Assembly: GCA_032622095.1 (NCBI GenBank)
Contig: CP136061.1
Location: 53,021,762 to 53,085,761, forward strand
DNA length: 64,000 nt
From: Siphonodentalium dalli
Taxonomy: Eukaryota; Mollusca; Scaphopoda; Gadilida; Siphonodentaliidae
Reading direction: 5' to 3'
Shown here: one piece after another, positions 10,679-63,811 of the stretch
Layout of the letters: each line of letters begins with the position of its first letter
Position numbering within the stretch: position 1 is the first letter of the stretch
The notes under the pieces: generated by a model
The model's input: the letters and a program-made list of their open reading frames with translations, nothing else
Told to the model about the DNA's origin: nothing
The model's database searches: none
Translations under genes and position numbers: made by a program

Positions 10679-10816
10679 TTTCCCGACAGCTCTGTTCATC
10701 CCAGTAGAGCAAATCAGTGTTTATGCAGTCACATCTCCCTGTTATTTGATCACAAACCAATCTATTTATACATGACTCTCGATTGTTTAGATCACATGGC
10801 TCCTTGTATCCGCTTT
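10679..10816 (-). CDS. Exon: single EGF/EB-like six-cysteine module, most downstream seen
   Basis: This exon is 138 bp or 46 codons, phase 1-1. The acceptor is attattatcaacag and the donor is A|gtgagt. It encodes SGYKEPC...NRESC...RLVC...GRCDC...LLYWDEQSC. Spacing is C-x7-C-x5-C-x6-C-x-C-x12-C. No further module could be found between here and position 1 on this strand. Because the exon ends in phase 1 with a consensus donor, it cannot be the terminal exon. Confidence 0.8.
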
Positions 10817-11185: not shown

Positions 11186-11382
11186 TACAGTAATGCCCTA
11201 AGTAATCGACTCCTTAACCACAGCAGAATTGTGGGTAACCTTTCTGGATTTAGTCGGAAATATGGCTTGTTGCCATTCATCGGAAAGCTCTCGGGGAGAG
11301 CTTTCCGATGAATGGCAACAAGCCATATTTCCGACTAAATTCTGCTGTGGTTAAGGAGTCGATTAATTAGGGCATTACTGTA
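11186..11382. mobile_element. TA-flanked palindromic MITE, copy 4
   Basis: Ends tacagtaatgccctaagtaa and ttagggcattactgta; the right arm lacks about 20 bp around the cctgaaaagttacc segment. It lies in the intron upstream of the exon at 10679-10816. Confidence 0.78.
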
Positions 11383-16956: not shown

Positions 16957-17085
16957 TTGATGTGCAATGAGTTCCATTCCAATAGTTTGAAATAGATGGA
17001 CAAAAGCAGCCATCTGGTGTACACTCCATGGTACCCAAGCATGATTTAGGGAATGCTTCGTTACATAACTTTTCAAATCCAAACT
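16957..17085 (-). CDS. Exon: single EGF/EB-like six-cysteine module
   Basis: This exon is 129 bp or 43 codons, phase 1-1. The acceptor is tgtttatttcag and the donor is A|gtaaga. It encodes FGFEKLC...FPKSC...TMEC...DGCFC...NYWNGTHC. Spacing is C-x7-C-x5-C-x4-C-x-C-x11-C, identical to the modules of the giant exon. The longer open frame across this region is in a different frame and is a shadow. The exon sits between the DIRS-like element ending at 16732 and a TA-MITE at 17169. Confidence 0.82.
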
Positions 17086-17168: not shown

Positions 17169-17386
17169 TACAGTAATGCTCTAAATAATCGACTCCTTAA
17201 CCACAGTGGAATTATGGGTAATTTTTTCAGGATTTAGTCGGAAATATGGCTTATTGTCATTTATCGGAAAACTCTCAGTGAGAGCTTTCCAGTGAATGGC
17301 AACAAGCCATATTTCTGACTAAACCCTGAAAAATTACCCATAATTCTGCTGTGGTTAAGGAGTCGATTATTTAGAGCATTACTGTA
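17169..17386. mobile_element. TA-flanked palindromic MITE, copy 5
   Basis: Complete palindrome from tacagtaatgctctaaataa to ttagagcattactgta. It lies about 83 bp upstream of the acceptor of the exon at 16957-17085. Confidence 0.8.
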
Positions 17387-17451
17387 CCTGAAAGACATTA
17401 TCTTGTTTAATTTGTTCCCCATTTATTTTATACAGTATTGATATAGTCTTT

Positions 17452-19850: not shown

Positions 19851-19857
19851 AATTACG

Positions 19858-19994
19858 TGTTATAGTCAGCAATAGCAACCCTGATAACCTAAGAGAGATA
19901 ACTCCACTTACCAGCTACCAATTAGTTGTTATTGTCAGCAGTAGCAACCTTGACAATCTAAGAGAGATAACTCCACCCACCAGCTACCTGATGA
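19858..19994 (+). repeat. Truncated 5' LTR of the copia element
   Basis: It is identical to the first 137 bp of the 228-bp 3' LTR, then jumps at tgatga directly into gag. The missing part comprises the last 91 bp of LTR, the primer-binding site and the gag start. It contains two imperfect copies (about 69 bp apart) of tgttat.gtcagca.tagcaac. Confidence 0.9.
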
Positions 19995-20260
19995 GTTGGA
20001 AAAATGAGCTGAAAATGTGGAATTTAGTGACTGATGTTCCCAAAAAAAAACAAGCTCTAGCAGTTGCGTTGTCACTTACGGGAAAAGCGAAGGAAATTGC
20101 TTTGGAAATCTCTGCAGACGACCTTGCTGACGAGGAACAGGGGATGAAGAAACTGTTAAAAAAATTGGATACAGCATTTGAAAAGGACAAAATAGATTGT
20201 GCGTTTGTGCGTATGAAGCATACAGCGACTTTGAAAACTTTCGTCGAAATGAGGAAATGA
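19991..20260 (+). pseudogene. gag: copia gag N-terminal fragment, frame broken near 20204
   Basis: The open frame starts at an ATG made by the LTR/gag deletion junction, reads MSWKNELKMWNLV and follows the copia Gag pattern (LTGKAKEIALEI, KKLDTAFEKDKI). After about 20203 the true frame continues in the next open frame. The cause is a perfect 8-bp tandem duplication, ttgtgcgt twice, at 20197-20212, which shifts the frame. The remaining codons to 20260 are out of frame and not gag-like. Gag normally forms the cytoplasmic virus-like particle that packages element RNA. The native amino terminus is lost. Confidence 0.8.
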
Positions 20261-23200: not shown

Positions 23201-23262
23201 AAAACGACATCATTGGTGCTATTCGAACACAACTAAATGTTGGAAGAGAAGAATCAGAATAT
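20205..23262 (+). pseudogene. pol: copia gag-pol: zinc knuckle, protease, integrase, first part of reverse transcriptase
   Basis: An open frame to the insertion point encodes, in order: the remaining Gag (EAYSDFENFRR); a CCHC knuckle C-x2-C-x4-H-x4-C (CAICGSLYHWAKNC); an aspartic protease active-site segment (VIDTACTKTVCG); the H-H-C-C pre-integrase finger (KLHNQFGHP ... CGTCEKF); integrase with catalytic acidic residues in VAMDLHQLG, VYFDNGGEF and NGLLERHNK; and reverse transcriptase from MAELQKWKEYEVY through MDIKAAFLQ to the catalytic HVDDF. The reading frame is then split by DIRS-like element 1 between codons for Tyr and Phe. Apart from the gag frameshift and this insertion no stop codons interrupt it, consistent with recent loss of activity. 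Confidence 0.92.
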
Positions 23263-24222
23263 CTCCGTCAAACGTATCTTGCCCACTGAACTATATGGTA
23301 TAGTATCCCAAGTAGGAGGGGTTAACTCTCTGAGTTGAAAAAAACGTACGGAAATTCTATGGTACATATCTTCTGTCATGTTCATGACCCGTGTAATCAC
23401 GTGGTTTCTGACACGGAGTGAAAGAACCGCCATATTTTTTATCCCTCCTCACAGGACGGGTGCTAAAAAGAATCTCTCACAAAGAATATGAAGCTAAGTT
23501 GCAGTTTGTATAGCAAAAACAGTTTTGTTTTTGTTTTATACGAACAACATTATTTCTTTGCTTATAGGTGAAAATTATGTAACGATTCACATAAAGATTA
23601 CGACGGTTTGTTCCGAATATAAGAATTTCGGAATCGGATGACTCGTTTCGTTTTAACCGACTTTGTCTTCCATAATTTTAATCGGTCAATGATTTAATAT
23701 CCGTTTTCTGTGCAGACAATGCAACGTTTCTGGCCTATTAAAGGCAGAACATTCGAGGCACCATTGGATATGACTAAAGACGCTGATCGTTTTCTTTATA
23801 ACAAATCTATGGCATACAGGTGACGTGTTATTTAAGTTACCACGTGCGTTGACGGTGGTTAAAGGTATCACGAAATTAGGTGACTTATTTTCGAGTTCAT
23901 TTTTTCGTTTGACGGCTTTCTTTATACGTTGACAATCATCGTCTGGTGTACAACTGACGGACAAACCAGTGTTTAAACGCTTGTGAAATAGGCTGATAGG
24001 ATTGTAAAATCCCGAATGTCACTTTGAACCTGTTTCACCCTGGATGATTAACAATGGGGCCGTTACTGCCTTGGTTGCCACATGGTAACATAACACAACA
24101 GGTGTATTTGTGATTGTTCGCAATCACATTAATTACTTTCACAGGACTGTTAATCGTTAGTCGTTAGTCGTTAGTCGTTAGTCGCTTCCCTCGTTTCGAG
24201 GTCCCAAGAGTTGAGAACGAAA

Positions 24223-27944: not shown

Positions 27945-28215
27945 GCTGAGCTCCCTCCCAGGGTTTCGCACCCACCCCGCTCACGAGGAATGTCCTACTG
28001 GGGATAAAAAATATGGCGGTTCTTTCACTCCGTGTAAGAAACCACGTGATTACACGGGTCATGAACATGACAGAAGATATGTACCATAGAATTTCCGTAC
28101 GTTTTTTTCAACTCGGAGAGTTAACCCCTCCTACTTGGGATACTATACCATATAGTTCAGTGGGCAAGATACTTCTAGGAGATATATATTTTACTTTTTC
28201 AGGAAAATATTGTAT

Positions 28216-29055
28216 TTCAAATATATCGGCCTACATTTAGAGGTGGTTAAAGATTGTGTCTCGTTGGATCAAGATAGTTACCTGAAGTGTCTGCAAGCAA
28301 TGACTATTTCAAAGGATCGCATAATGAGTAAAGAGGCGTCTTTAACATCTGAAGAAAAGACAATACTTCAATCAAAACTTGGACAACTGCTCTGGATAGC
28401 AGTTCAAACTCGACCAGACATTATGTATGACACGGCTGTCTTAACCTCGGAGCTGCAAAATCCTTCAGTAAAGCACATTCTGGCAATCAACAAAATAATA
28501 AAGAGAGTGAAGTCGGATAATGTGAAGCTGCTATTCAAGAAGTTTGACAACCCAGAAAACACAAGACTGCTAGTTTATAGTGATGCGTCTTTGGGAAACC
28601 TTTACGATGGCGGAAGCCAAGGTGGACATCTGATCATGATAACGGACAACGAAACAGTTATACCAAATGCATGGCAATCAAAACGTATTCGTCGCATAGT
28701 CAGAAGTACCTTAGCTGCTGAAACGCTTGCGCTAGCAGATGGTATTGATGCAGCCATTCACACAGCTCAATTATACTCCGAAATAATGACAGGATCTGTA
28801 AATCCGAAATTCATCCCTATAGAGTGCGTTACAGACAACCATTCATTATACGATGCGCTAAAGTCTACGAACTATGTTTGCGAGAAACGTTTACGTATGG
28901 ACATTAACGGAATTCGAGAGCTGATCAGAAGTCGCCAGATAACTGAAGTTAAATGGAGCAAGTCGCAGTATCAGTTAGCTGACTGTCTGACCAAGAAAGG
29001 AGCATCATCTCTAGCCCTGCTCGGAGTGCTGGAGAGAGGATCGCTGCTGCAGTAA
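28216..29055 (+). pseudogene. pol: copia pol: end of reverse transcriptase and RNase H
   Basis: It resumes the same reading frame right after the DIRS-like insertion and its TAT. It includes KYIGLHLEV, the copia-typical GQLLWIAVQTRPDI, and RNase H with VYSDASLGN, the glutamate in LAAETLALADG and the aspartate in VTDNHSLYDAL, ending LADCLTKKGAS and a stop at 29053-29055. RNase H digests the RNA of the RNA-DNA hybrid during cytoplasmic reverse transcription. The purine tract and 3' LTR follow within 70 bp. It has no start of its own and is not expected to be expressed alone. Confidence 0.92.
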
Positions 29056-29121
29056 GACAATGACGGAGATGTAAATAAATGTACATAAAGTTGTAAATAG
29101 AACTTCTAGAAAGAGGGGAGT

Positions 29122-29349
29122 TGTTATAGTCAGCAATAGCAACCCTGATAACCTAAGAGAGATAACTCCACTTACCAGCTACCAATTAGTTGTTATTGTC
29201 AGCAGTAGCAACCTTGACAATCTAAGAGAGATAACTCCACCCACCAGCTACCTGATGACATCACAGGAAGGGAGGTCATTGTGTGATCACCCAAGGTGGA
29301 TGGACAGAAGTAGAAGCAGGAGACAACAAGTGTAAGTGTCTACTTAACA
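29122..29349 (+). repeat. 3' LTR of the copia element
   Basis: 228 bp from TGTTATAGTCAGC to CTACTTAACA, preceded by the purine tract agaaagaggggag. It is flanked downstream by TTACG, the target duplication. Confidence 0.92.
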
Positions 29350-29706: not shown

Positions 29707-32700
29707 CAGGGTTCGCACTACCACTTGCCAAATTTGCTATGAATGGCAAAAATAATTCACATTTTGTAAAAAATATTTTCATTTGACAAAAGTTTTGGCA
29801 ACTCACTTATCAATTCACAAAGAAAGTTGTTGAACATATACCACTAATTTCACAATTACTATTGACTTAGGAAATGTTAACACTGCTATCATGATGTAGC
29901 ACTCTATTGAGCGATGGAAGGTTTAATCATGATGATGATGTTTACATAGCTAATCCTCTTTGTTTTGGGGTGCCATCCCGATGAAGCAGTCCTCCTACAA
30001 TTTTATTGTGATATATTTATTGTTCTATAATAATGAAAGTGTCAATGACACTGTAGCTCAACTTAGGTAGGGGAATAATTTAATGGTTGACAGTAAATGG
30101 AGGAATAGGAAAGGTGCTAATTGAAATGTCTAACATGCGCCAAAGGATTTAGTGATGCAAAGAGTAAAATACAAGATGGCTGCTGGTGGCCATTTTTTTT
30201 GGCCAATTGACCCCAAAAGAACTCGTTCCCATCTACGTATAATTGTTAACATCCATGACAAATTTTATGAAGATCTGACCAAAGCTACGACATACAAATT
30301 TCATGATGATCAGACGAACAGTACGACCTGTAGACCGCGCCAATGGATTGAATTTTGAAATCCAAGATGGCCGCTGGCAGCCATGTTTTTTGGCCGAATG
30401 ACCCCACAATGATTCGTTCCCATCTACATGTCAATGTCAACATTCATGACAAATTTAATAAATATCAGACCAAAGGTATGACCTGTAGCCCACGCCAAAG
30501 GATTTAGTCATGCAAAAAGTAAAATGCTGGTGGCAATGTTTTTTGACCGAATGACCCCAAAACGACTCGTTCCCATCTACATGTCATTGTTATAATTAAT
30601 GACAAATTTCATGACCATTTGACCAAAGCTACGACCTGTAGCCCGCACCAAAGGATTTAGTCATGCAAAGAGTAAAATCCAAGATGGCTGCTGGCGGCCA
30701 TGTTTTTTGACCAAATGACCCCAAAACGACTCGATCCCATCTACATGTCATTGTTATCATTCATGACAAATTTCATGATGATCAGACGAACAGTACGACC
30801 TGTAGCCCGCGCCAATGGATTGAATTTTGAAATCAAAGATGGCCACCAGCAGCCATGTTTTTTGGCCGAATGACCCGACAATGATTCGTTCCCATTTACA
30901 TGTCAATGTCAACGTTCATGACAAATTTTATAAAGATTAGACCAAAGGCAACCTATAGCCCGCGCCAAAGGATTTAGTCATGCAAAGAGTAAAATCCAAG
31001 ATGGCTGCTGGCGGCCATGTTTTTTGGCCGAACGACTCCAAAATCACTCGTTCCCATCTACATGTCATTATTAACATCAATGACAAATTTCATGATGATC
31101 AGACGAACAGTACGACCTGTAGCCCGCGCCAATGGATTGAATCTTGAAATCCAAGATGGCTGCCAGCGGCCATGTTTTTTGGCCGAATGACCCCAAAATT
31201 ACTCGTTCCCATCTACATGTCAATGTCAACATTCATGACAAATTTCATAAAGATCAGACCAAAGGTACGACCTGTAGCCCGCGCCAAAGGATTTAGTCAT
31301 GCAAAGAGTAAAATACAAGATGGCTGCTGGCGGCCATGTTTTTTGGCCGAACGACACCAAAATCACTCGTTCCCATCTACATATCATTATAAACATCACT
31401 GACAAATTTCATGATGATCAGGCGAACAGTACGATCTGTAGCCCGCACCAATGGATTGAATCTTGAAATCCAAGATGGCTGACAGCGGCCATGTTTTTAG
31501 GCCGAATGACCCCAAAATGACTCGTTCCCATCTCCATGTCAATGTCAACATTCATGACAAATTTCATAAAGATCAGACCAAAGGTACGACCTGTAGCCCG
31601 GGCCAAAGGATTTAGTCATGCAAAGAGTAAAATCCAAGATGGCTGCTGGCAGCCATGTTTTTCGGCCAAACAACTCCAAAATCACTCGTTCCCATCTACA
31701 TGTCATTGTTAACATCCATGACAAATTTCATGATGTTCCGATCAAAGCTACGACATGTAGCCCGCGCCAAAGGATTTAGTCATGCAAAGAGTAAAATCCA
31801 AGATGGCTGCTGGCGGCCATGTTTATTGGCCGAACGACCCCAAAATGACTCGTTCCCATCTACATGTCAATATTAACATCCATGACAAATTTCATGATGA
31901 TCAGACGAACAGTACGACCTGTAGCCCGCGCCAATGGATTGAATTTTGAAATCTAAGATGGCCGCCAGCGGCCATGTTTTTTGGCCAAATGACCCCACAA
32001 TGATTCGTTCCCATCTACATGTCAATGTCAACATTCATGACAAATTTCATAAAGATTAGACCAAAGGTACAACAACCTGTAGCCCGCGCCAAAGGATTTA
32101 GTCATGCAAAGAGTAAAATCCAAGATGGCTGCTGGCGGCCATGTTTTTTGGCCGAACGACACCAAAATCACTTGTTGCCATCTACATGTCATTATTAACA
32201 TCAATGACAAATTTCATGATGATCAGGCGAACAGTACGATCTGTAGCCCGCGCCAATGGATTGAATCTTGAAATCCAAGATGGCTGCCAGGGGCCATGTT
32301 TTTAGGCCGAATGACCCCAAAATGACTCGTTCCCATCTCCATGTCAATGTCAACATTCATGACAAATTTCATAAAGATCAGACCAAAGGTACGACCTGTA
32401 GCCCGGGCCAAAGGATTTAGTCATGCAAAGAGTAAAATCCAAGATGGCTGCTGGCAGCCATGTTTTTCGGCCAAACAACTCCAAAATCACTCGTTCCCAT
32501 CTACATGTCATTGTTAACATCCATGACAAATTTCATGATGTTCCGATCAAAGCTACGACATGTAGCCCGCGCCAAAGGATTTAGTCATGCAAAGAGTAAA
32601 ATCCAAGATGGCTGCTGGCGGCCATGTTTATTGGCCGAACGACCCCAAAATGACTCGTTCCCATCTACATGTCAATATTAACATCCATGACAAATTTCAT

Positions 32701-35676
32701 GATGATCAGACGAACAGTACGACCTGTAGCCCGCGCCAATGGATTGAATTTTGAAATCTAAGATGGCCGCCAGCGGCCATGTTTTTTGGCCAAATGACCC
32801 CACAATGATTCGTTCCCATCTACATGTCAATGTCAACATTCATGACAAATTTCATAAAGATTAGACCAAAGGTACAACAACCTGTAGCCCGCGCCAAAGG
32901 ATTTAGTCATGCAAAGAGTAAAATCCAAGATGGCTGCTGGCGGCCATGTTTTTTGGCCGAACGACACCAAAATCACTTGTTGCCATCTACATGTCATTAT
33001 TAACATCAATGACAAATTTCATGATGATCAGGCGAACAGTACGATCTGTAGCCCGCGCCAATGGATTGAATCTTGAAATCCAAGATGGCTGCCAGGGGCC
33101 ATGTTTTTAGGCCGAATGACCCCAAAATAATGACTCGTTCCCATCTACATGTCAATGTCAACATTCATGACAAATTTCATAAAGATCAGACCAAAGGTAC
33201 GACCTGTAGCCCGGGCCAAAGGATTTAGTCATGCAAAGAGTAAAATCCAAGATGGCTGCTGGCGGCCATGTTTTTCGGCCGAACGACCCCAAAATCACTC
33301 GTTCCCATCTACATGTCATTGTTAACATCCGTGACAAATTTCATGATGTTCCGATCGAAGCTACGACCTGTAGCCCGCGCCAAAGGATTTAGTCATGCAA
33401 AGAGTAAAATCCAAGATGGCTGCTGGTGGCCATGTTTATTGGCCGAACCCCAAAACGACTCGTTCCCATCTACATGTCAATATTAACATCCATGACAAAT
33501 TTCATGATGATCAGACGAACAGTACGACCTGTAGCCCGCGCCAATGGATTGAATCTTGAAATCCAAGATGGCTGCCAGCGGCCATGTTTTTTGGCAGAAT
33601 GACCCCAAAATGACTCGTTCCCATCTACATGTCAATGTCAACATTCATGACAAATTTCATAAAGATCAGACCAAAGGTACGACCTGTAGCCCGGGCCAAA
33701 GGATTTAGTCATGCAAAGAGTAAAATCCAAGATGGCTGCTGGCGGCCATGTTTTTCGGCCGAACGACCCCAAAATCACTCGTTCCCATCTACATGTCATT
33801 GTTAACATCCATGACCAATTTCATGATGTTCCGATCGAAGCTACGACCTGTAGCCCGCGCCAAAGGATTTAGTCATGCAAAGAGTAAAATCCAAGATGGC
33901 TGCTGGTGGCCATGTTTATTGGCCGAACAACCCCAAAATGACTCGTTCCCATCTACATGTCAATATTAACATCCATGACAAATTTCATGATGATCAGACG
34001 AACAGTACGACCTGTAGCCCGCGCCAATGGATTGAATTTTGAAATCTAAGATGGCCACCAGCGGCCATGTTTTTTGGCCGAATGACCCCACATTGATTCG
34101 TTCCCATCTACATGTCAATGTCAACATTCATGAAAAATTTCATAAAGATTAGACCAAAGGTACAACCTGTAGCCCGCGCCAAAGGATTTAGTCATGCAAA
34201 GAGTAAAATCCAAGATGGCTGCTGGTGGCCATGTTTTTTGGCCGAACAACTCCAAAATCACTCGTTCCCATCTACATGACAGTGTTAACATCCATGACAA
34301 ATTTCATAAACTTCCGACCAAAACAACGACCTGTAGCCCGCGCCAAAGGATTTAGTCATGCAAAGAGTAAAATCCAAGATGGCTGCTGGCAGCCATGTTT
34401 TTTGGCCGAACGACCCCAAAATCACTCGTTCCCATCTACATGTCATTGTTAACATCCATGACCAATTTCATGATGTTCCGATCGAAGCTACGACCTGTAG
34501 CCCGCGCCAAAGGATTTAGTCATGCAAAGAGTAAAATCCAAGATGGCTGCTGGTGGCCATGTTTATTGGCCGAACAACCCCAAAATGACTCGTTCCCATC
34601 TACATGTCAATATTAACATCCATGACAAATTTCATGATGATCAGACGAACAGTACGACCTGTAGCCCGCGCCAATGGATTGAATTTTGAAATCTAAGATG
34701 GCCACCAGCGGCCATGTTTTTTGGCCGAATGACCCCACATTGATTCGTTCCCATCTACATGTCAATGTCAACATTCATGAAAAATTTCATAAAGATTAGA
34801 CCAAAGGTACAACCTGTAGCCCGCGCCAAAGGATTTAGTCATGCAAAGAGTAAAATCCAAGATGGCTGCTGGTGGCCATGTTTTTTGGCCGAACAACTCC
34901 AAAATCACTCGTTCCCATCTACATGACAGTGTTAACATCCATGACAAATTTCATAAACTTCCGACCAAAACAACGACCTGTAGCCCGCGCCAAAGGATTT
35001 AGTCATGCAAAGAGTAAAATCCAAGATGGCTGCTGGCAGCCATGTTTTTTGGCCGAACGACCCCAAAATCACTCGTTCCCATCTACATGTCATTATTAAC
35101 ATCAATGACAAATTTCATGATGATCAGATGAACAGTACGACCTGTAGGCCGCGCCAATGGATTGAATCTTGAAATTCAAGATGGCTGCCAGCGGCCATGT
35201 TTTTTGGCCGAATGACCCAAAAATGACTCGTTCCCATCTACATGTCAATGTCAACATTCATGACAAATTTCATGAAGATCAGACCAAAGGTACAACCTGT
35301 AGCCCGCGCCAAAGGAAATTGTTGACGGACACACGGACACACGCACACACGGACACACGGACACACGGACGACGGACGCCAAACCATGGCAATAGCTCAA
35401 ACTTACAAGTAAGTTGAGCTAAAAATGAGGGACAATAATTATTAATAATTGACTGCTTCCAGGTCGTTATCACTACTTGCATCAACACCAGAATGAAAGA
35501 AAAATCTGATATGTCGACAAAGCTTACAAAAGTCGTCACACAGTTATTGTTAAAACATGAGACTCAATATTGCAGAAACCGATAGAATTTGGCAACTTCT
35601 AAAATAATTTGGCAAAAATAATTTTCATTTCGCAAAAGACTTGGCAAAAGGAAATTTCAGGCCAGCGCATACCCTG
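29707..35676. mobile_element. hAT-like element carrying a pearl-like tandem array
   Basis: The left end is CAGGGTTCGCACTACC; the right end (reverse complement) is CAGGGTATGCGCTGGCC. Flanking 8 bp are AAGTAGGT (29699-29706) and AATTAGGT (35677-35684), a 7/8 match, as expected for hAT. Both ends share aatttggca and aaaataattttcattt motifs. The array at about 30050-35430 is a separate insertion in its interior. Confidence 0.6.
30050..35430 (+). repeat. Pearl-like element: ~33 tandem ~160-bp units plus cacacgga microsatellite and end hairpin
   Basis: Units alternate between types marked gcgccaaaggatttagtcat and gcgccaatggattgaat; both continue aagatggctgc..gcggccatg, ctcgttcccatctacatg and atgacaaatttcat. 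The array ends in a gacacacgg microsatellite (about 35327-35370) then atagctcaaacttacaa / gtaagttgagct, a hairpin. tgtagctcaactta at the left edge (30052) is an inverted match to the right. Tandem core, ACGG-type microsatellite and short terminal inverted repeats resemble the bivalve pearl/Helentron-related elements. Open frames across it are repeat artefacts. Confidence 0.7.
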
Positions 35677-36440: not shown

Positions 36441-36581
36441 TTGATATGCAGTTCGAGTTGTTCCAGAACTGGCTCGAGTTTGAACACTGGCACAGCCCAT
36501 CAATACATGAGACCTCCAGAGCTGCATTCAAACACGGGTTCTCTACACTGTCAGTAGGACACTGCTTATCGAATGCTTTCT
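36441..36581 (-). CDS. Exon: single EGF/EB-like six-cysteine module
   Basis: This exon is 141 bp or 47 codons, phase 1-1. The acceptor is cttgttttcag and the donor is A|gtgagt. It encodes KAFDKQC...VENPC...VSC...GLCQC...SQFWNNSNC, spacing C-x8-C-x8-C-x4-C-x-C-x11-C. FWNNSNC matches the FWNN signature of the B modules of the giant exon and contains a sequon. It lies about 6 kb downstream of the giant exon in transcript order. A TA-MITE begins at 36596, leaving only about 14 intronic bases between the MITE and the 3' splice site. Confidence 0.82.
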
Positions 36582-36595
36582 CTGAAAACAAGAGA

Positions 36596-36776
36596 TACAG
36601 TAATGCCCTAAATAATCGACTCCTTAACCACAGCAGAATTATGGGTAACTTTTCAGGATTTAGTCGGAAATATGGTTTGTTGCCATTCATCGGAAGCCAT
36701 ATTTCCGACTAATTCCTGAAAAATTACCCGTAATTCTGCTGTGGTTAAGGAGTCGATTATTTAGGGCATTACTGCA
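36596..36776. mobile_element. TA-flanked palindromic MITE, copy 6
   Basis: The loop region is shortened (cattcatcggaagccatatt). It begins about 15 bp upstream of the splice acceptor of exon 36441-36581. Confidence 0.8.
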
Positions 36777-36810
36777 TGTAGTCAAGACGTTCATTGAAAT
36801 ATTCAATATA

Positions 36811-42558: not shown

Positions 42559-45500
42559 TGCCCTGACATTTACTGCGATCCCAGTAAGTACTGATGTCCG
42601 AACAAACACACTGACCGTCATTACAAGTCAGTCCCATTATGCATGCATCCTCCGGGGTCGAACTACAATTCTCAAGGAATCCTATTCTTGTCGAACACAC
42701 TTTACCATCCCAGTAGTTGTTTGCATCTGAACATTGGCAACTCTGCTTTCGACATTTCAGGCCTTTCTTACATGAATCCTCAGGAACATTTGAGCATAGA
42801 TTATTCACATCAATCCTTCTCTGACATTGTTCCCCGGTCCAGAAATCCACTGAATCCGAGCAGACACATTTATCATTCTTACATGTCAGCTCACCTCGAC
42901 AAGGATCTTCATGTAGGAGTACACATTTCATTTTAAATTGTATACGTGATACACATCTCATGCCATTCCAATACATTGCATTATTGTCACAGACACAAAC
43001 TCCATCTACACAAGTCAAGCCGATTATGCAAGGGTCTTCTGGAACCAATTTACACAGAGAATCAAAGGGTTTTCTCTGGGCGCAGTTTTCATTATTCCAA
43101 AATGTGTTGATGTTTGGACAAGAACAGAAGCCTTCAGCACATACAAGATCACCTATACATGAATCTTCTGGGACATCAGTGCATTCAGAACTTAAAGAAT
43201 TTCTTGAAATACATTCTCGCTTGTTCCAGAAAAGAGTATTATCTTCGCAGCCACAAACTCCATCTACACAAGTCAAGCCGATTATGCAAGGGTCCTCTGT
43301 AAGTAATTTACATGGAGAATCAAACGGTTTTCTTGTGGCGCAGTTTACATTATTCCAAAATGTGTCAATATTTGGACAAGAACAGAAGCCTTCAGTACAT
43401 ACAAGATCACCGATACATGAATCTTCTGGGACATCAGTGCATTCAGAACTTAAAGAATTTCTTGAAATACATTCTCGTCTGTTCCAGAAAAGAGTATTAT
43501 CTTCGCAGCCACAAACTCCATCTACACAAGTCAAGCCGATTATGCAAGGGTCCTCTGTAAGTAATTTACATGGAGAATCAAACGGTTTTCTTGTGGCGCA
43601 GTTTACATTATTCCAAAATGTGTCAATATTTGGACAAGAACAGAAGCCTTCAGTACATACAAGATCACCTACACACGAATCTTCTGGGACATCAGTGCAT
43701 TCAGAACCTAAAGAATTTCTTGAAATACAATCTCGCTTGTTCCAGAAAAGAGTTTCATCTTCGCAGCCACAAATTCCATCTACACAAGTCAAGCCGATTA
43801 TGCATGGGTCCTCTGGAAGTAGTTTACACGGAGAATCAAACGGTTTTCTTGTGGCGCAGTTTACATTATTCCAAAATGTGTCAATATTTGGACAAGAACA
43901 GAAGCTTTCAGTACATACAAGATCACCGATACAAGAATCTTCTGGGACATCAATGCATTCAGAACTTAAAGAATTTCTTGAAATACATTCTCGACTGTTC
44001 CAGAAAAGAGTTTCATCTTCGCAGCCACAAACTCCATCTACACAAATCAAGCCGATTATGCAAGGATCCTCAGGAACCAATTTACATGGAGAATCAAAGG
44101 GTTTTCTCTGGGCGCAGATTTCATTATTCCAAAATGTGTTGATATTTGGACAAGAACAGAAGCCTTCATTACATATAAGATCACCTATACATGAATCTTC
44201 TGGGACATCAATGCATTCAGAACCTAAAGAATTTCTTGAAATACATTCTCGCTTGTTCCAGAAAAGAGTATTATCTTCGCAGCCACAAACTCCATCTACA
44301 CAAGTCAAGCCGATTATGCAAGGATCCTCAGGAACCAATTTACATGGAGAATCAAAGGGTTTTCTCTGGGCGCAGATTTCATTATTCCAAAATGTGTTGA
44401 TGTTTGGACAAGAACAGAAGCCTTCAGCACATACAAGATCACCTATACATGAATCTTCTGGGACATCAGTGCATTCAGAACGTAAAGAATTTCTTGAAAT
44501 ACATTCTCGTCTGTTCCAGAAAAGAGTTTCATCTTCGCAGCCACAAACTCCATCTACACAAATCAAGCCGATTATGCAAGGATCCTCAGGAACCAATTTA
44601 CATGGAGAATCAAAGGGTTTTTTCTGGGCACAGATTTCATTATTCCAAAATGTGTTGATATTTGGACAAGAACAGAAGCCTTCATTACATATAAGATCAC
44701 CGATACATGAATCTTCTGGGACATCAATGCATTCAGAACCTAAAGAATTTCTTGAAATACATTCTCGCCTGTTCCAGAAAAGAGTATTATCTTCGCAGCC
44801 ACAAACTCCATCTACACAAGTCAAGCCGATTATGCAAGGGTCCTCTGGAAGTAATTTACATGGAGAATCCAAGGGTTTTCTTGTGGCGCAGTTTACATTA
44901 TTCCAAAATGTGTCAATATTTGGACAAGAACAGAAGCCTTCAGTACATACAAGATCACCGATACACGAATCTTCTGGGACATCAGTGCATTCAGAACCTA
45001 AAGAATTTCTTGAAATACATTCTCGCTTGTTCCAGAAAAGAGTTTCATCTTCGCAGCCACAAACTCCATCTACACAAGTCAAGCCGATTATGCATGGGTC
45101 CTCTGGAAGTAGTTTACACGGAGAATCAAACGGTTTTCTTCTGGTGCAGTTTACATTATTCCAAAATGTGTTGATATTTGGACAAGAACAGAAGCCTTCA
45201 GTACATACAAGATCACCGATACATGAATCTTCTGGGACATCAGTGCATTCAGAACTTAAAGAATTTCTTGAAATACATTCTCGCCTGTTCCAGAAAAGAG
45301 TTTCATCTTCGCAGCCACAAACTCCATCTACACAAGTCAAGCCGATTATGCAAGGGTCCTCTGTAAGTAATTTACATGGAGAATCAAACGGTTTTCTTGT
45401 GGCGCAGTTTACATTATTCCAAAATGTGTCAATATTTGGACAAGAACAGAAGCCTTCAGTACATACAAGATCACCTATACATGAATCTTCTGGGACATCA

Positions 45501-48500
45501 GTGCATTCAGAACCTAAAGAATTTCTTGAAATACATTCTCGCTTGTTCCAGAAAAGAGTTTCATCTTCGCAGCCACAAACTCCATCTACACAAGTCAAGC
45601 CGATTATGCAAGGGTCCTCTGGAACCAATTTACATCGAGAATCAAAGGGTTTTCTCTGGGCGCAGATTTCATTATTCCAAAATGTGTTGATATTTGGACA
45701 AGAACAGAAACCTTCAGTACATACAAGATCACCTATACATGAATCTTCTGGGACATCAGTGCATTCAGAACTTAAAGAATTTCTTGAAATACATTCTCGT
45801 CTGTTCCAGAAAAGAGTTTCATCTTCGCAGCTACAAACTCCATCTACACAAGTCAAGCCGATTATGCAAGGATCCTCAGGAAGTAATTTACACGGAGAAT
45901 CAAACGGTTTTCTTGTGGCGCAGTTTACATTATTCCAAAATGTGTTGATATTTGGACAAGAACAGAAGCCTTCAGTACATACAAGATCACCAATACATGA
46001 ATCTTCTGGGACATCAGTGCATTCAGAACTTAAAGAATTTCTTGAAATACATTCTCGCCTGTTCCAGAAAAGAGTATTGTCTTCGCAGAAACAAACTCCA
46101 TCTACACAAGTCAAGCCGATTATGCAAGGATCCTCAGGAAGTAATTTACACGGAGAATCAAACGGTTTTCTTGTGGCGCAGTTTACATTATTCCAAAATG
46201 TGTTGATATTTGGACAAGAACAGAAGCCTTCAGTACATACAAGATCACCGATACAAGAATCTTCTGGGACATCAGTGCATTCAGAACTTAAAGAATTTCT
46301 TGAAATACATTCTCGCTTGTTCCAGAAAAGAGTTTCATCTTCGCAGCCACAAATTCCATCTACACAAGTCAAGCCGATTATGCATGGGTCCTCTGGAAGT
46401 AGTTTACACGGAGAATCAAATGGTTTTCTTGTGGCGCAGTTTACATTATTCCAAAATGTGTCAATATTTGGACAAGAACAGAAGCTTTCAGTACATACAA
46501 GATCACCGATACACGAATCTTCTGGGACATCAATGCATTCAGAACTTAAAGAATTTCTTGAAATACATTCTCGCCTGTTCCAGAAAAGAGTTTCATCTTC
46601 GCAGCCACAAACTCCATCTACACAAGTCAAGCCGATTATGCATGGGTCCTCTGGAAGTAATTTACATGGAGAATCAAACGGTTTTCTTGTGGCGCAGTTT
46701 ACATTATTCCAAAATGTGTCAATATTTGGACAAGAACAGAAGCCTTCAGTACATACAAGATCACCGATACATGAATCTTCTGGGACATCAGTGCATTCAG
46801 AACTTAAAGAATTTCTTGAAATACAGTCTCGCCTGTTCCAGAAAAGAGTTTCATCTTCGCAGCCACAAACTCCATCTACACAAGTCAAGCCGATTATGCA
46901 TGGGTCCTCTGGAAGTAGTTTACACGGAGAATCAAACGGTTTTCTTCTGGTGCAGTTTACATTATTCCAAAATGTGTCAATATTTGGACAAGAACAGAAG
47001 CCTTCAGTACATACAAGATCACCGATACATGAATCTTCTGGGACATCAGTGCATTCAGAACCTAAAGAATTTCTTGTAATACATTCTCGCCTGTTCCAGA
47101 AAAGAGTATTGTCTTCGCAGCTACAAACTCCATCTACACAAGTCAAGCCGATTATGCAAGGATCCTCAGGAAGTAATTTACACGGAGAATCAAACGGTTT
47201 TCTTGTGGCGCAGTTTACATTATTCCAAAATGTGTTGATATTTGGACAAGAACAGAAGCCTTCAGTACATACAAGATCACCAATACATGAATCTTCTGGG
47301 ACATCAGTGCATTCAGAACTTAAAGAATTTCTTGAAATACATTCTCGCCTGTTCCAGAAAAGAGTATTGTCTTCGCAGAAACAAACTCCATCTACACAAG
47401 TCAAGCCGATTATGCAAGGATCCTCAGGAAGTAATTTACACGGAGAATCAAACGGTTTTCTTGTGGCGCAGTTTACATTATTCCAAAATGTGTTGATATT
47501 TGGACAAGAACAGAAGCCTTCAGTACATACAAGATCACCGATACAAGAATCTTCTGGGACATCAGTGCATTCAGAACTTAAAGAATTTCTTGAAATACAG
47601 TCTCGCCTGTTCCAGAAAAGAGTTTCATCTTCGCAGCCACAAACTCCATCTACACAAGTCAAGCCGATTATGCATGGGTCCTCTGGAAGTAGTTTACACG
47701 GAGAATCAAACGGTTTTCTTCTGGTGCAGTTTACATTATTCCAAAATGTGTCAATATTTGGACAAGAACAGAAGCCTTCAGTACATACAAGATCACCGAT
47801 ACATGAATCTTCTGGGACATCAGTGCATTCAGAACTTAAAGAATTTCTTGAAATACATTCTCGCCTGTTCCAGAAAAGAGTATTGTCTTCGCAGCCACAA
47901 ACTCCATCTACACAAGTCAAGCCGATTATGCAAGGATCCTCAGGAAGTAATTTACACGGAGAATCAAACGGTTTTCTTGTGGCGCAGTTTACATTATTCC
48001 AAAATGTGTTGATATTTGGACAAGAACAGAAGCCTTCAGTACATACAAGATCACCGATACAAGAATCTTCTGGGACATCAGTGCATTCAGAACTTAAAGA
48101 ATTTCTTGAAATACAGTCTCGCCTGTTCCAGAAAAGAGTTTCATCTTCGCAGCCACAAACTCCATCTACACAAGTCAAGCCGATTATGCATGGGTCCTCT
48201 GGAAGTAGTTTACACGGAGAATCAAACGGTTTTCTTCTGGTGCAGTTTACATTATTCCAAAATGTGTCAATATTTGGACAAGAACAGAAGCCTTCAGTAC
48301 ATACAAGATCACCGATACATGAATCTTCTGGGACATCAGTGCATTCAGAACCTGAAGAATTTCTTGAAATACATTCTCGCCTGTTCCAGAAAAGAGTATT
48401 GTCTTCGCAGCTACAAACTCCATCTACACAAGTCAAGCCGATTATGCAAGGATCCTCAGGAAGTAATTTACACGGAGAATCAAACGGTTTTCTTGTGGCG

Positions 48501-51459
48501 CAGTTTACATTATTCCAAAATGTGTTGATATTTGGACAAGAACAGAAGCCTTCAGTACATACAAGATCACCGATACATGAATCTTCTGGGACATCAGTGC
48601 ATTCAGAACTTAAAGAATTTCTTGAAATACATTCTCGCCTGTTCCAGAAAAGAGTATTGTCTTCGCAGCCACAAACTCCATCTACACAAGTCAAGCCGAT
48701 TATGCAAGGGTCCTCTGGAAGTAATTTACATGGAGAATCAAACGGTTTTCTTGTGGCGCAGTTTACATTATTCCAAAATGTGTTGATATTTGGACAAGAA
48801 CAGAAGCCTTCAGTACATACAAGATCACCGATACAAGAATCTTCTGGGACATCAGTGCATTCAGAACTTAAAGAATTTCTTGAAATACAGTCTCGCCTGT
48901 TCCAGAAAAGAGTTTCATCTTCGCAGCCACAAACTCCATCTACACAAGTCAAGCCGATTATGCATGGGTCCTCTGGAAGTAGTTTACATGGAGAATCAAA
49001 CGGTTTTCTTCTGGTGCAGTTTACATTATTCCAAAATGTGTCAATATTTGGACAAGAACAGAAGCCTTCAGTACATACAAGATCACCGATACATGAATCT
49101 TCTGGAACATCAGTGCATTCAGAACCTAAAGAATTTCTTGAAATACATTCTCGCCTGTTCCAGAAAAGAGTTTCATCTTCGCAGACACAAACTCCATCTG
49201 CACAAGTCAAGCCGATAATGCAAGGGTCCTCTGGGACCAATTTACACGGAGAATCAAATGGTTTTCTCTGGGCGCAGATTTCATTATTCCAAAATGTGTC
49301 GATATTTGGACAAGAACAGAAGCCTTCAACACATACAAGATCACCGATACACGAATCTTCTGGGACATCAGTGCATTCAGAACCTAAAGAATTTCTTGAA
49401 ATACACTCTTGGTTATTCCAGAAAAGAGTTTCATCTTTGCAGCCACAAACTCCATCTACACAAGTCAAGCCGATTATGCAAGGGTCCTCTGGGACCAATT
49501 TACATGGAGAATCAAAGGGTTTTCTCTGGGTGCAGATTTCGTTATTCCAAAATGTGTTGATATTTGGACAAGAACAGAAGCCTTCAGTACATACAATGTC
49601 ACCGATACACGAATCTTCTGGGACATCAGTGCATTCAGAACCTAAAGAATTTCTTGAAATACATTCTCGTCTGTTCCAGAAAAGAGTTTCATCTTCGCAG
49701 CCACAAACTCCATCTACACAAGTCAAGCCGATTATGCAAGGGTCTTCTGGAACCAATTTACATGGAGAATCAAACGTTTTTCTTGTGGCGCAGTTTACAT
49801 TATTCCAAAATGTGTCAATATTTGGACAAAAACAGAAGCCTTCAGTGCATACAAGATCACCGATACAAGAATCTTCTGGGACATCAGTACATTCAGAACT
49901 TAAAGAATTTCTTGAAATACATTCTCGCGTGTTCCAGAATAAAGTTTCATCTTCGCAGCCACAAACTCCATCTACGCAAGTCAAGCCGATTATGCAAGGG
50001 TCCTCTGGGACCAATTTACACGGAGAATCAAAGGGTTTTCTCTGGGTGCAGATTTCATTATTCCAAAATGTGTTGATATTTGGACAAGAACAGAAGCCTT
50101 CAGTACATACAAGATCACCGATACACGAATCTTCTGGGACATCCGTGCATTCAAAACTTAAAGAATTTCTTGAAATACAATCTCGCTTGTTCCAGAAAAG
50201 AGTTTCATCTTCGCAGCCACAAATTCCATCTACACAAGTCAAGCCGATTATGCAAGGGTCTTCTGGAACCAATTTACATGGAGAATCAAAGGGTTTTCTA
50301 AAGATGCAATTTGTACCATTCCAATAACTATTATCATCTTGACAACTACAGACACTATTACACAACATTTCCCCCTTGCATGGGTCCTCAACCTCAACAA
50401 GACATTCCTCAAGAAGATTTATTTTCTGATTACATGTTGTGCCATCATAATATGATCCATCGTCTGAGCATCTACAGAACTCCTCAATGCAGGCAAGTTC
50501 CCTAGAACACGAGTCCTCATAAGTTAACAAGCATTCACTATCAAAGCCACTCCTCTCCAAACATTCCTCACCATTCCAAAATAAATTTCCAGTAATGCAT
50601 CTGCAAAAATACTCCACACAAATTAGTTCCCCCTGGCATTCATCTTGTAACCCATAGTTACAGGAATCATTGAAAACTTTCTCATCAGTGCATGTAATGC
50701 CATTCCAGATCAAACCATTTTGACAAGTACATTTACTCTCCACACAAACTAAATTTTCTTTGCAAGAGTCTGTGGGCAAAGATACACATTCGGTATCAAA
50801 ATTGCCCATTTGCGTACAATGAGAACCATTCCAAAATGAAAGATTATTGGCACATATACATCCGTCGTTAATGCATGATAAATCACTCATGCATGAATCT
50901 TCTGGCAGGGATATGCATTGCTCATTAAAATTATGTCTTCGGGTGCATGATTCTCCATCCCAGGAGGTGTCATGGTCCACACATCTACAGCTATTTTCAA
51001 AACAAAATAATGTTCGTTTGCACGGATCCTCTGGAGCTATTGATGTTATACATCCAGCTTCAAAACCTAGCCTCGTTACACACTCAACCCCATTCCAAAA
51101 CTCATCTGTGTCAAAACACTGACAAATGTTTTCAACACAGCTCAAGCCATCCTGGCAATGATCTTCTGGAAACTGCAAGCAAAAAGAACCCAACACTTTT
51201 CTATTCCTGCATTGAGCACCATTCCAATAACTAAGAACATTAGGACAGAGACATAAATTGTCAATACATGTCAAATCGCCCAGGCATTGGTTCCCTGGCA
51301 ACAAAGAGCACTCCTGGTCGTAGCCTTTCTTAACATCACAGTGAGTGTCATTCCAGTATGTTTCTGGGTCCGGGCAGTTGCATTGGCCGTCGATGCAGAT
51401 TGAGTCGCTAATACAGGGGTCTTCTTTGCCAGGATAGCAGTCCGCTTGATAAGGTAACC
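42559..51459 (-). CDS. Giant exon: ~69 tandem EGF/EB-like modules (2967 codons)
   Basis: This is one uninterrupted reading frame of 8901 bp. Phase-1 acceptor gaatttgacag lies before GLPYQADC; phase-1 donor A|gtaagt follows KCQG. The frame runs on through both intron edges, to 51523 and 42551, only by chance. Modules are about 43 residues with spacing C-x7-C-x5-C-x4-C-x-C-x11-C and a conserved FWN or YWN before C6. Modules 1-9 (about 50300-51459) and 67-69 (about 42559-42947) are diverged. Modules 10-66 alternate A (PFDSPCKL...EDPCIIGLTC) and B (SLSSECTD...EDSCIGDLVC). Many diverged modules carry sequons such as WNDTHC or WNGTNC. C4-x-C5 and 1-1 phase fit EGF-like domains; EB modules of nematode and mollusc proteins are the alternative. 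No calcium-binding EGF consensus, transmembrane segment or enzyme domain is visible. The likely role is structural or adhesive, extracellular; function is not established. Confidence 0.85.
42948..50300 (-). repeat. 258-bp dimer array coding A/B modules (28.5 copies)
   Basis: This intra-exonic tandem array has a 129-bp monomer and a 258-bp dimer. Dimer landmarks recur exactly 258 bp apart through most of the block. Blocks around 45952-46206 and 47242-47496 encode identical dimers 1290 bp (five dimers) apart. Blocks at 47500-48012 and 48016-48528 are almost identical at 516 bp (two dimers). This higher-order pattern indicates recent unequal crossing-over or gene conversion, so copy number may vary between alleles and may be collapsed or expanded in an assembly. 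Confidence 0.9.
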
Positions 51460-51717: not shown

Positions 51718-51933
51718 TACAGTAATGCCCTAAATAATTGACTCCTTAACCACATCAGAATTATGGGTAATTTTTCAGGATTTAGTCGGAAATATGGCTT
51801 GTTGCCATACATCGGAAAGCTTTCACGAGAGCTTTCCAATGAATGGCAACAAGCCATATTTCCGACTAAATCCTGAAAAATTACCCATAATTCTGCTGTG
51901 GTTAAGGAGTTGATTATTTAGAGCATTAATGTA
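51718..51933. mobile_element. TA-flanked palindromic MITE, copy 7
   Basis: Complete palindrome from tacagtaatgccctaaataa to ttagagcattaatgta. It lies about 260 bp upstream of the giant exon's acceptor. Confidence 0.8.
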
Positions 51934-53846: not shown

Positions 53847-53993
53847 TTGGTTCACATGTAGTGTTATCCCAGTAGAATGTGGGATTCAAGCACCCACAAT
53901 GCTGGCTAAATCCGCCCACGACACATGCCAGTCCTGGTGCACATATCTCCTCATAGTCCTCTAATGAGTTACACTCTGTGCCAAAATGTTCTT
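53847..53993 (-). CDS. Exon: single EGF/EB-like six-cysteine module
   Basis: This exon is 147 bp or 49 codons, phase 1-1. The acceptor is tttcctgcag and the donor is A|gtgagt. The product begins EEHFGTEC and ends FYWDNTTCEP; the YWDNTTC segment carries an N-glycosylation sequon (NTT). Spacing is C-x9-C-x5-C-x8-C-x-C-x11-C, so the C3-C4 loop is longer than in the repeated modules of the giant exon. It is the last single-module exon before the giant exon, about 2.4 kb away. The next upstream exon is 640 bp away. Confidence 0.8.
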
Positions 53994-54635: not shown

Positions 54636-54770
54636 TCTGAACACAGTCACCTCCATCATAATATTTGTTTAGATTATTGTCACATCGGCAGAGGTTGTTT
54701 GAATCACATGACAGCATGGTCTGACAAGAATCTTGTGGTACTTTTTGACATGATTGATCAAAGTTCTGTC
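54636..54770 (-). CDS. Exon: single EGF/EB-like six-cysteine module
   Basis: This exon is 135 bp or 45 codons, phase 1-1. The acceptor is aatttttcag and the donor is A|gtaagt, which is consensus. Translation starts QNFDQSC and contains PQDSC, CRC and NKYYDGGDC. Spacing is C-x7-C-x5-C-x5-C-x-C-x12-C, matching the family C4-x-C5 core. It has no ATG-initiated open frame of its own and was recognised from the module signature between two good splice sites. It lies about 640 bp upstream of the next exon in transcript order, inside an intron landscape of TA-MITE fragments and hairpin elements. Confidence 0.8.
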
Positions 54771-54995
54771 CTGAAAAATTTGATTGCAATAGTCAGTATA
54801 AAAACAAACATATTGCTTAAGCCTTTCTATACTAAATACTCATTGACAAGAACACAGTAATACCCTAGATAATGGACTCCTTAACTCCTTGACAAAACAT
54901 GAGATGTATTAAAGTTTAAAACAAGATCACTGAATGACTCTCAAGTCCGTGGGACAAATTAATACTTGATGTCAGAACATAGCAACAGATCAATA

Positions 54996-55128
54996 TACAG
55001 TAATGCCCTAAATATTCGACAGAGAGCTTTCCGATGAATGGCAACAAGCCATATTTCCGACTAAATCCTGAAAAATTACCCATAATTCTGCTGTGGTTAA
55101 GGAGTCCATTATTTAGGGCATTACTGTA
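54996..55128. mobile_element. TA-flanked palindromic MITE, copy 9 (left arm deleted)
   Basis: tacagtaatgccctaaatat runs into agagctttccgatgaatgg, then the complete right arm to gggcattactgta. A further fragment of the same left end lies near 54855-54890. Confidence 0.75.
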
Positions 55129-56565: not shown

Positions 56566-57399
56566 TAAAATTGTTTCCCCGGTTTGAACAGGGAATTGGG
56601 AAATGATGTTAAAGTTTAAGCTTCAAGGTCTAAGAACTGTGCGGAATTCAAATGAAATTCGATATTGATGTTAATGATTACTCTCAAGCAACAGTTTTGT
56701 TCGTTCATAGACGTAAAACGAAGTATTGGAGAACTGGAAGAGGTGCAAGGGATAACTTATTCCAGGGCAGAATCCAGACTACTCAATTCCGAGTCCAGTA
56801 GTTCACAATTACCAATTCAACGACAGCCTGCTCAGTAGGTGAATCTGATTGGCTGTTGCGATAACAATTTTAAGTGGCAGTATCACCATATTGCTGCCAC
56901 TTAATTTTTTTTAGTGGCACAAGCCACGGCCAAATACTTTGACCCATTTTTCAGACACTTTAAAGGCATTCATTCCGATCAACTAAATATGGCTGTATTA
57001 TCACTTGAGTATCACGAAATTTGGCTGTATTACCACTTGATTTTAGAGTTATCCATCTGTATCCGCAACTTTGTCTGAGAATGACCGTTTGACGATGTGT
57101 TTCTGGGCCACAAATAATTGCAAATCACGAGAAATAAAAAACTTCAAAAATTGATATCGGATCACTCTGAGCTTTGATGGGTGGGTTCCTCAAATCGAAT
57201 CTAAAAATATTTACGCCCGAGGCCAAAGAAATAGTAATTTAGGAGCTTTATTCGGATAATGCATCTTTTAAAAAAAACAGATTAAATTAAGTTTTGCCTA
57301 TTGTCTGGTGGGGTATCAAATTCATTGCAGGGTTTACCTCCCTTGATGATTCGGTAAGACCACTCTTGATGATTCGGTAAGACCACTGCTAACGGCGAC

Positions 57400-59603: not shown

Positions 59604-60212
59604 TTAAACATTTTGGTCTGCTCACTTAGTATATGTCTTTATATCGAGGAAGTCCACCAAATGTGGGTAAAATGTCGCCATTAGCAGTGGTCTTACCGAA
59701 TCATCAAGAGTGGTCTTACCGAATCATCAAGGGAGGTAAACCCTGCAATGAATTTGATACCCCACCAGACAATAGGCAAAACTTAATTTAATCTGTTTTT
59801 TTTAAAAGATGCATTATCCGAATAAAGCTCCTAAATTACTATTTCTTTGGCCTCGGGCGTAAATTTTTTTAGATTCGATTTGAGGAACCCACCCATCAAA
59901 GGCTCAGAGTGATCCGATATCAATTTTTGAAGTTTTTTATTTCTCGTGATGTGCAATTATTTGTGGCCCAGAAACACATCGTCAAACGGTCGTTCTCAGA
60001 CAAAGTTGCGGATACAGATGGATAACTCAAAAATCAAGTGGTAATACAGCCAAATTTCGTGATACTCAAGTGATAATACAGCCATATTTAGTTGATCGGA
60101 ATGAATGCCTTTAAAGTGTCTGAAAAATGGGTCAAAAGTATTTGGCCGTGGCTTGTGCCACTAAAAAAAATAAAGTGGCAGCAATATGGTGATCCTATAT
60201 CTTAATTTTTCC

Positions 60213-60410: not shown

Positions 60411-60664
60411 CAAGCCTTGAAATAGGGTGTCTGTCATTTGCAGAATGAAGTCCCCAGAGGGTGAATTTAGTGATGCTACCCCGCATAGCGGGCTAGCATC
60501 ACCAAATTCACCCTCTGGGAACCTCATTCTGCTGAGGTGTAAGCAGAATGAGGTCCCCAGAGGGTGAATTTGGTGATGCTAGCCCGCTATGTGGGGTAGC
60601 ATCACTAAATTCACCCTCTGGGGACCTCATTCTGCAAATGACAGACACCCAATTTCAAGGCTTG
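60411..60664. mobile_element. hAT-like double-palindrome MITE with 8-bp duplication TTCCACAC
   Basis: Near-identical to 2261-2514. TTCCACAC occurs at 60403-60410 and 60665-60672. Confidence 0.85.
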
Positions 60665-63100: not shown

Positions 63101-63235
63101 TGTTAAAACATCCACCAGTCACAAGATAATATTGTGCATCCAGTTCACAAGCACATCTCCCTGCTTTACATGTTAGGTTTGCGTTGCATGGATTTTCAGG
63201 GGCTGTGTTTTCACATGGTGAGTTGAAATCCAAAC
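63101..63235 (-). CDS. Exon: single EGF/EB-like six-cysteine module
   Basis: This is the most upstream exon seen, 135 bp or 45 codons, phase 1-1. The acceptor is ctgttttcag, followed by codons that start LDFNSPC. The donor is A|gtttgt, a weaker match than in the other exons. Cysteine spacing is C-x8-C-x5-C-x4-C-x-C-x12-C, and the usual aromatic pair before the last cysteine is YY. A PENPC sequence takes the place of the (E/D)D(S/P)C motif of the sister modules. The exon is too short to stand out as an open reading frame and was found from its splice sites and cysteine pattern. A TA-flanked MITE starts only about 25 bp upstream of the acceptor. It presumably forms an extracellular disulfide-bonded module; a binding partner cannot be inferred. 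Confidence 0.75.
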
Positions 63236-63259
63236 CTGAAAACAGATAATATATATATA

Positions 63260-63668
63260 TACAGTAATGTGCCTAAATAATCGACTCCTCAAGTTCCAGG
63301 GGCGCCGGAAGAGGGGGGGCCATAAAAACCGACAAATACCATTAAAATAGGGATTTTTGCCACAATTAATTTACGGTTATTTTCCCGAGTTTGTGGAGAA
63401 AATGCCCTTTTTTGCGGAAAAGTGCACTTTTTGTAGGCTCTGCCCCCCCTGCCCTTGGATGCTTCCGGCGCCCCTGTCCTTAACCACAGCAGAACTATGG
63501 GTAATTTTTCAGGATTTAGTCGGAAATATGGCTTTTTGCCATTCATTGGAAAGCTCTCACCGAGAGCATTCCGATGAATGGCAACAAGCCATATTTCCAA
63601 ATAAATCCTGAAAAATTACCCATAATTCTGCTGTGGTTAAGGAGTCGATTATTTAGGGCATAACTGTA
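63260..63668. mobile_element. TA-MITE, copy 13, split by a 180-bp hAT-like element
   Basis: The left edge tacagtaatgtgcctaaata, the interruption 63297-63476, then the remainder to agggcataactgta. Confidence 0.78.
63297..63476. mobile_element. hAT-like 180-bp MITE with CAGGGGCGCCGGAAG ends
   Basis: Inverted ends CAGGGGCGCCGGAAG / CTTCCGGCGCCCCTG, inserted in the MITE. G-rich and C-rich runs lie just inside the ends. The flanking duplication is imperfect (tcctcaag and tccttaac, offset by three bases). Confidence 0.7.
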
Positions 63669-63811
63669 TATCACAAGCCAAAAATTTATATTTGAGACCA
63701 TCTGTGACATACAGTGAACTACTCAGTTTTGGGTATACTGTTAAAGCCACACAACTGCTATAGTAGATTAGGAAGTTTATTTCTTTCACAAAATTCTAAA
63801 TGAATACAGTT

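Follow-up and report, generated by a model that had tools for sequence, protein, structure and literature searches.

A 64,000-nucleotide stretch of the genome of the scaphopod Siphonodentalium dalli (assembly GCA_032622095.1, contig CP136061.1, positions 53,021,762 to 53,085,761; hereafter the window, whose own numbering is used throughout) was analysed in silico, and its minus strand was found to carry a giant exon in which 69 six-cysteine modules of the EB type follow one another in frame. Within this exon, 56 modules form an array of near-identical pairs that is homogenised and under constraint, and the modules join exactly at the position at which single-module sister exons of the same predicted gene are spliced. 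We hold with moderate confidence the explanation, taken as a whole, that this coding exon lies centrally in the gene for a large animal protein made up of EB-type modules of EGF-like size and spacing. The product appears to be a genuine repeat protein from a module family that is known, though uncharacterised, and not a new type of system.

Structure of the giant exon and its modules

The exon and its parts are as follows.

42559..51459, minus strand: giant EB exon, phase 1-1, with 69 EB-type modules (open frame, GTAAGT donor, ..TTTGACAG acceptor, Pfam EB)
50297..51457, minus strand: diverged modules 1-9 (cysteine pattern; Pfam EB 49.4 bits, E 5e-13)
42990..50299, minus strand: homogenised array, 28.3 copies of a 258-bp A-B dimer, comprising modules 10-65 and the first part of module 66 (Tandem Repeats Finder, unit comparison)
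42560..42989, minus strand: last part of module 66 and diverged modules 67-69 (repeat limits, cysteine pattern)

On the minus strand the exon is bordered by an acceptor reading ..GAATTTGACAG/GG and a donor reading ..GGCA/GTAAGT, both in phase 1, and its 8901 nt amount to 2967 codons with the split codons included, the 2966 whole codons being free of stops. Neither a GTRAGT donor nor a Y8NYAG acceptor occurs inside the 8901 nt. An earlier, sequence-only reading had given the coordinates, length and phase-1 acceptor and donor exactly and had left the strand unstated; its proposal of a single symmetric exon is supported by the open frame with consensus splice borders in phase 1-1.

The cysteine pattern search counted 69 modules, as had been estimated. 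Their spacing, C-x7-C-x5-C-x4-C-x-C-x11-C, had been termed invariant, which is overstated, since it holds in 66/69 modules and differs in modules 4 (9-5-4-1-11), 6 (7-5-4-1-10) and 9 (7-5-3-1-11). Likewise, the proposed module length of 43 residues stands for 65 of the 68 module-to-module offsets and fails for the remaining three (45, 42 and 42). The internal linkers are nine residues long throughout (68/68), and the C-x-C between the fourth and fifth cysteine that is looked for in EGF-like modules is present in all 69. The FWN motif, put forward earlier as unusual, was found in 59/69 modules, namely all 56 of the core and three of the other 13, and is replaced in the remaining outer modules by YWN, YWD, SWD, IWN, YYD or FWT; because of these variants, FWN is one form of a family motif and its unusualness was overrated. 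The exact alternation of two module types, A and B, can be followed through modules 10-65 (56/69) and was overstated in being extended to the whole exon.

Assignment to the EB family

The family was assigned with Pfam EB (PF01683, InterPro IPR006149), for which the gathering cut-off is 24.3 bits. The non-repetitive modules 1-9 exceed it clearly (49.4 bits, E 5e-13), EB being the only family listed for them, and an A-B pair passes it narrowly at 25.4 bits. EB matches at E <= 1 were obtained for all 22 module pairs scanned (of 68 possible; best 8e-8) and for 18 of the 29 single modules scanned (of 75; best 0.0014). EGF models match fewer members than EB does; their best matches (E 0.0022 among the 29 modules and 0.00024 among the 22 pairs) are below cut-off by inference, and EGF_FBN_1st reaches 22.1 bits with the giant exon against a cut-off of 26.7. 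The EB-type nature of the modules, as earlier suggested, is hence supported.

The EB module has eight conserved cysteines according to its Pfam text. Each 43-residue period holds six, and the EB match includes the last cysteine of the preceding module; in the pair shown it spans residues 38-76, starting just before the first module's last cysteine, whereas the exon borders give a C1-C6 register. Outside Pfam, the giant exon had no match in NCBIfam, and a sequence search of the PDB returned none for the module profile or the exon. Nothing was found at gathering level in Rfam and no tRNA was predicted; one scan each of viral contigs and of bacterial/archaeal genome contigs confirmed no relatives outside the window.

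Homogenisation and selection in the A-B dimer array

The 28 dimers (modules 10-65) share a mean pairwise DNA identity of 0.939 (378 pairs, range 0.888-1.0), while the mean likeness between A and B modules is 0.49 for DNA and 0.40 for protein. Identity drops with the distance between units (Mantel r -0.23, p 0.002), is enriched at lag 5 (p 0.0002, unchanged with the maximum taken over lags 1-10), and the blocks are linked by exact runs of up to 488 bp. Such distance decay, lag-5 peak and long exact runs are the pattern that unequal exchange and block duplication leave. The near-identical in-frame copies with block duplications that mark a large homogenised repeat exon are present, and the growth by internal duplication that had been proposed is borne out, the multiplied unit being the A-B dimer. 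Since the modules at the two ends (1-9, 67-69 and the end of 66) are diverged, the exon appears to have held several modules before the present array arose.

Units 9 and 11 are identical, as are units 12 and 17, which could be taken to mean that the copy number was produced by the assembly; with 26 distinct sequences among the 28 units and diverged modules flanking the array at either end, this seems improbable, as misassembly would not create such variants.

Constraint is evident in the sense frame, where the ratio of nonsynonymous to synonymous change (dN/dS) between dimers is 0.29 (A 0.22, B 0.41) and synonymous variants make up 32 of the 76 distinct ones, where 26% would be expected (p 0.0016). 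These two results are at odds with the view that the array does not code, being a satellite or a decaying pseudogene whose frame is open for want of a stop in the 258-bp unit. That the period is divisible by three, that the antisense frame is also open for 2500 aa, and that the lack of stops given the observed variants is by itself weak evidence for coding (p 0.057) would all suit such a satellite. Nevertheless, every one of the 28 units is 258 bp long and in register, the 13 modules outside the core retain frame and cysteines, and related sister exons have splice sites, leaving the satellite very improbable.

The antisense frame deserves separate mention.

42825..50327, plus strand: antisense open frame of 2500 aa (open-frame listing)

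It is open and its synonymous count is similar (31/76), as a real gene might show. The third codon positions are, however, common to both frames (26/76 variants are synonymous in both), its dN/dS of 0.416 exceeds the 0.29 of the sense frame, it ends 165 and 28 bp past the array limits, and its six Pfam hits (e.g. Bac_rhamnosid, 1e-27), of which no stretch passes alone, look like artefacts of repetition. The chance that it is a real gene is thus negligible, and the frame looks like a by-product.

Sister exons and the module joins

A hidden Markov model (HMM) was trained on 15 of the 69 modules in the giant exon and run over all six frames of the window. It recovered six more modules, all on the minus strand, with E <= 1.5e-5, the next best hit standing at 0.74. 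Their exons are listed below; each rests on the HMM and splice sites.

63101..63235, minus strand: sister exon, one module, phase 1-1; its donor, GTTTGT, is weak and was positioned by homology
54636..54770, minus strand: sister exon, one module, phase 1-1
53847..53993, minus strand: sister exon, one module, phase 1-1
36441..36581, minus strand: sister exon, one module, phase 1-1
16957..17085, minus strand: sister exon, one module, phase 1-1
10679..10816, minus strand: sister exon, one module, phase 1-1

As the sequence-only reading had it, each of the six found in the window holds one module. The HMM score of each sister module is higher than that of its reversed copy and of all 20 shuffles with fixed cysteines, so these modules are not chance matches. 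They share on average 17% of their non-cysteine residues, and their spacings vary, 7-5-4-1-11 being found in one of the six. Each exon has a usable phase-1 acceptor and donor in matching positions with respect to the cysteines; these sites were picked by consensus and homology, with other AG and GT sites also nearby. The donor is GTRAG in five of the six (GTTTGT at 63101), and both borders are in phase 1 in all seven predicted exons, with one donor placed by homology. Splicing the seven in silico yields 3241 residues without a stop, 75 modules and nine-residue linkers in 74/74 cases, with junction codons encoding K or R in 6/6; at least 75 modules of the predicted gene are contained within the window.

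The split codon of the sister exons corresponds to the third residue of the linkers inside the giant exon, and this residue is K or R in 66/68. Among the 12 linkers outside the array it is K or R in 10 (p 3e-10 against 7.5% K/R in that part), and its codon starts with A in 10 (p 7e-5 against 27%); all six sister exons and the giant exon likewise end with A. At the joins of all copies, which are not independent, AGR outnumbers CGN by 62:1 versus a comparison ratio of 30:34. The modules in the giant exon thus join exactly at the splice position of the sister exons, as would be expected if introns had been lost precisely and amplification in frame had come afterwards. It had been suggested that the introns between modules were lost or never gained; precise loss is indirectly favoured by these joins, and later gain between the sister modules is the other possibility. 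That the joins reflect intron loss is what we infer from the 1-1 pattern of the exons.

The order of events would be the following. One phase 1-1 exon per module would be the ancestral state; the introns between modules would have been lost in one stretch, exactly at the splice junctions, to give a multi-module exon whose modules then diverged; and one neighbouring pair, A-B, would have been amplified to 28 copies through unequal exchange and the duplication of blocks, with the frame kept and purifying selection acting. As for the agent, we suggest tentatively, as a possible course and a rather doubtful one, that a run of single-module exons gave way to a copy of itself that had been spliced and reverse-transcribed, so that several introns vanished at once and a module pair could expand to 28 copies, in which case the K/R codon of the internal joins would be a fossil of the lost splice junctions.

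Conversely, the multi-module exon may be ancestral, the sister modules having been split by introns gained later at the linker codon. The joins would coincide in position under loss or gain alike. Yet the seven exons are all symmetric 1-1, which is the pattern of shuffled extracellular modules, and together with the flanking elements considered below this makes the ancestral exon unlikely in our estimation.

The coincidence of joins with splice junctions is the most instructive part of the locus. What reads as one gene displays both the one-module-per-exon state and an intron-free state of 69 modules in which the joins are still readable, and this offers a clean case for asking whether intron loss lets module arrays expand.

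Mobile elements near the exons

A palindromic element of about 200 bp, resembling a miniature inverted-repeat transposable element (MITE) and often ending TACAGTAATGCCC / GGGCATTACTGTA, is present in about 14 copies, small fragments left out.

36595-36777, 17169-17389, 63256-63672, 54846-55128, 51718-51933, 11182-11382 and eight further: MITE-like copies (BLAST, merged rows)

Alignments of the copies with one query are 70-97% alike. Six of the seven EB exons have a copy 14-366 nt upstream of their acceptor and the seventh has one at 853 nt, and none occurs within 980 nt downstream of the EB-exon donors. None of 20,000 random acceptor sets had 6/7 within 400 nt of a MITE-like copy, the thresholds and the sampling range having been chosen afterwards. 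Biased insertion could account for this placement, as could a function in splicing. If later intron gain drew on mobile elements, an element near the acceptor of 6/7 exons would suit it; however, the element pieces shared between exon flanks are mostly 88-98% alike in DNA (lowest 83%) against 17% of non-cysteine residues for the sister modules, and being so much more alike, the elements look much younger than the exons. That the elements were carried along by exon duplication was rejected on the ground that they are more alike than the exons.

Predicted structure and product

AlphaFold models of the A-B pair reached a predicted local distance difference test score (pLDDT) of 87.7 (other models 87.2 to 56.9), and those of four modules 81.5 (others 80.6 to 65.3). 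Each module shows two short hairpins, around C3-C4 and before C6. Such a two-hairpin layout is expected of EGF-like modules, whose disulfides pair 1-3, 2-4 and 5-6. Weak Foldseek matches included EGF domains of Pfs25, TNF receptors and single knottins.

The exon product is rich in cysteine (14%) and very acidic (isoelectric point 4.1), with a mass of 329 kDa; 12 N-x-S/T motifs occur in the exon, six of them in the 56-module core, and the array core contains no tyrosine. The predicted protein is probably secreted, and the product would be a long, extended, acidic chain of disulfide-stapled beads whose length scales with copy number. A role as a spacer or matrix-type component is our best guess, held with less than even confidence, and a DOPA-type (3,4-dihydroxyphenylalanine) adhesive role for the array itself is unlikely. 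Length polymorphism of this acidic, disulfide-rich chain is predicted.

Several observations weigh against the preferred explanation of a central coding exon built of EB-type modules and grown after intron loss. The exon structure is predicted from genomic DNA, the gene probably extends past both window ends, no signal peptide or terminal domain was identified in the gene predicted in the window, and the copy number hinges on the assembly. With regard to the family, the whole-exon EB match (359 bits, E 9e-110) is inflated by repetition, and exon-wide E-values are not used as main evidence because the antisense frame also obtains a spurious 1e-27; single modules appear to miss the EB cut-off, as mostly deduced from E-values, and the spliced upstream and downstream sister triplets score below it at 17.4 and 11.8 bits. 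Of four sister modules scanned singly, two match EB (12.3 and 11.5 bits) and two match nothing; the module at 63102-63233 scores higher with EGF_integrin (17.3 bits, cut-off 27) than with EB (12.3). With regard to the fold, mean pLDDT is <70 in one of the five pair models and in three of the five four-module models, Foldseek found no match to the PDB at E < 0.001 for the pair or the four-module chain, and among the 50 matches listed the closest to a single module by TM-score of the target is the knottin 5epm (TMt 0.78, prob 0.66), which speaks against an EGF fold. With regard to the joins, the AGR preference outside the array (7:1 versus 7:5) is not significant (p 0.32), and the same picture would arise if demands of the protein had conserved K/R at an old exon border.

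Comparison with known repeat proteins

The locus is of a known kind, combining a large homogenised repeat exon, comparable to the mucins, with an EB expansion, comparable to that of the flat oyster. In the flat oyster, PMC9679249 reports massively expanded EB genes (31 and 11 copies) and terms the EB domain uncharacterised even there; genes have multiplied in that case, whereas here modules have multiplied within one exon. Repeats gathered in one large exon are described for mucins and other genes in PMC13345508, and copy-number polymorphism would be expected here too; unlike in the mucins, the unit here is a pair of cysteine modules (14% Cys), with only 12 N-x-S/T sites in the exon. Foot protein 2 of the mussel Perna viridis, with 23 EGF-like repeats (PMC7971044), resembles the giant exon in its long tandem of small cysteine modules with EGF-compatible spacing and C-x-C. 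In contrast to such EGF-like repeat proteins, the array core here is without tyrosine, and no Pfam EGF model scores above cut-off where bits are given. No description of a single-exon EB array was found among the titles and abstract openings listed from the open-access literature searched.

Other repeats in the window

Pieces of a Copia-type long terminal repeat retrotransposon lie about 4.9 kb apart on the plus strand at 20182-23289 (RVT_2 4.8e-30, with weaker integrase and gag matches) and 28156-29055 (weakly matched), in the intron between exons 36441-36581 and 16957-17085. Portions of the ends of this element may be preserved in the 69-bp repeats found at 19851-19988 and at 29119-29252. 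A satellite of about 164 bp, in about 30 copies at 30294-35316, occupies the same intron. At 57342-57387 and 59686-59731, separated by about 2.3 kb, a doubled 23-bp motif and its reverse complement are possibly the ends of a DNA transposon, and two similar 103-bp tandem pairs are found near opposite ends of the window at 2290-2484 and 60440-60635.

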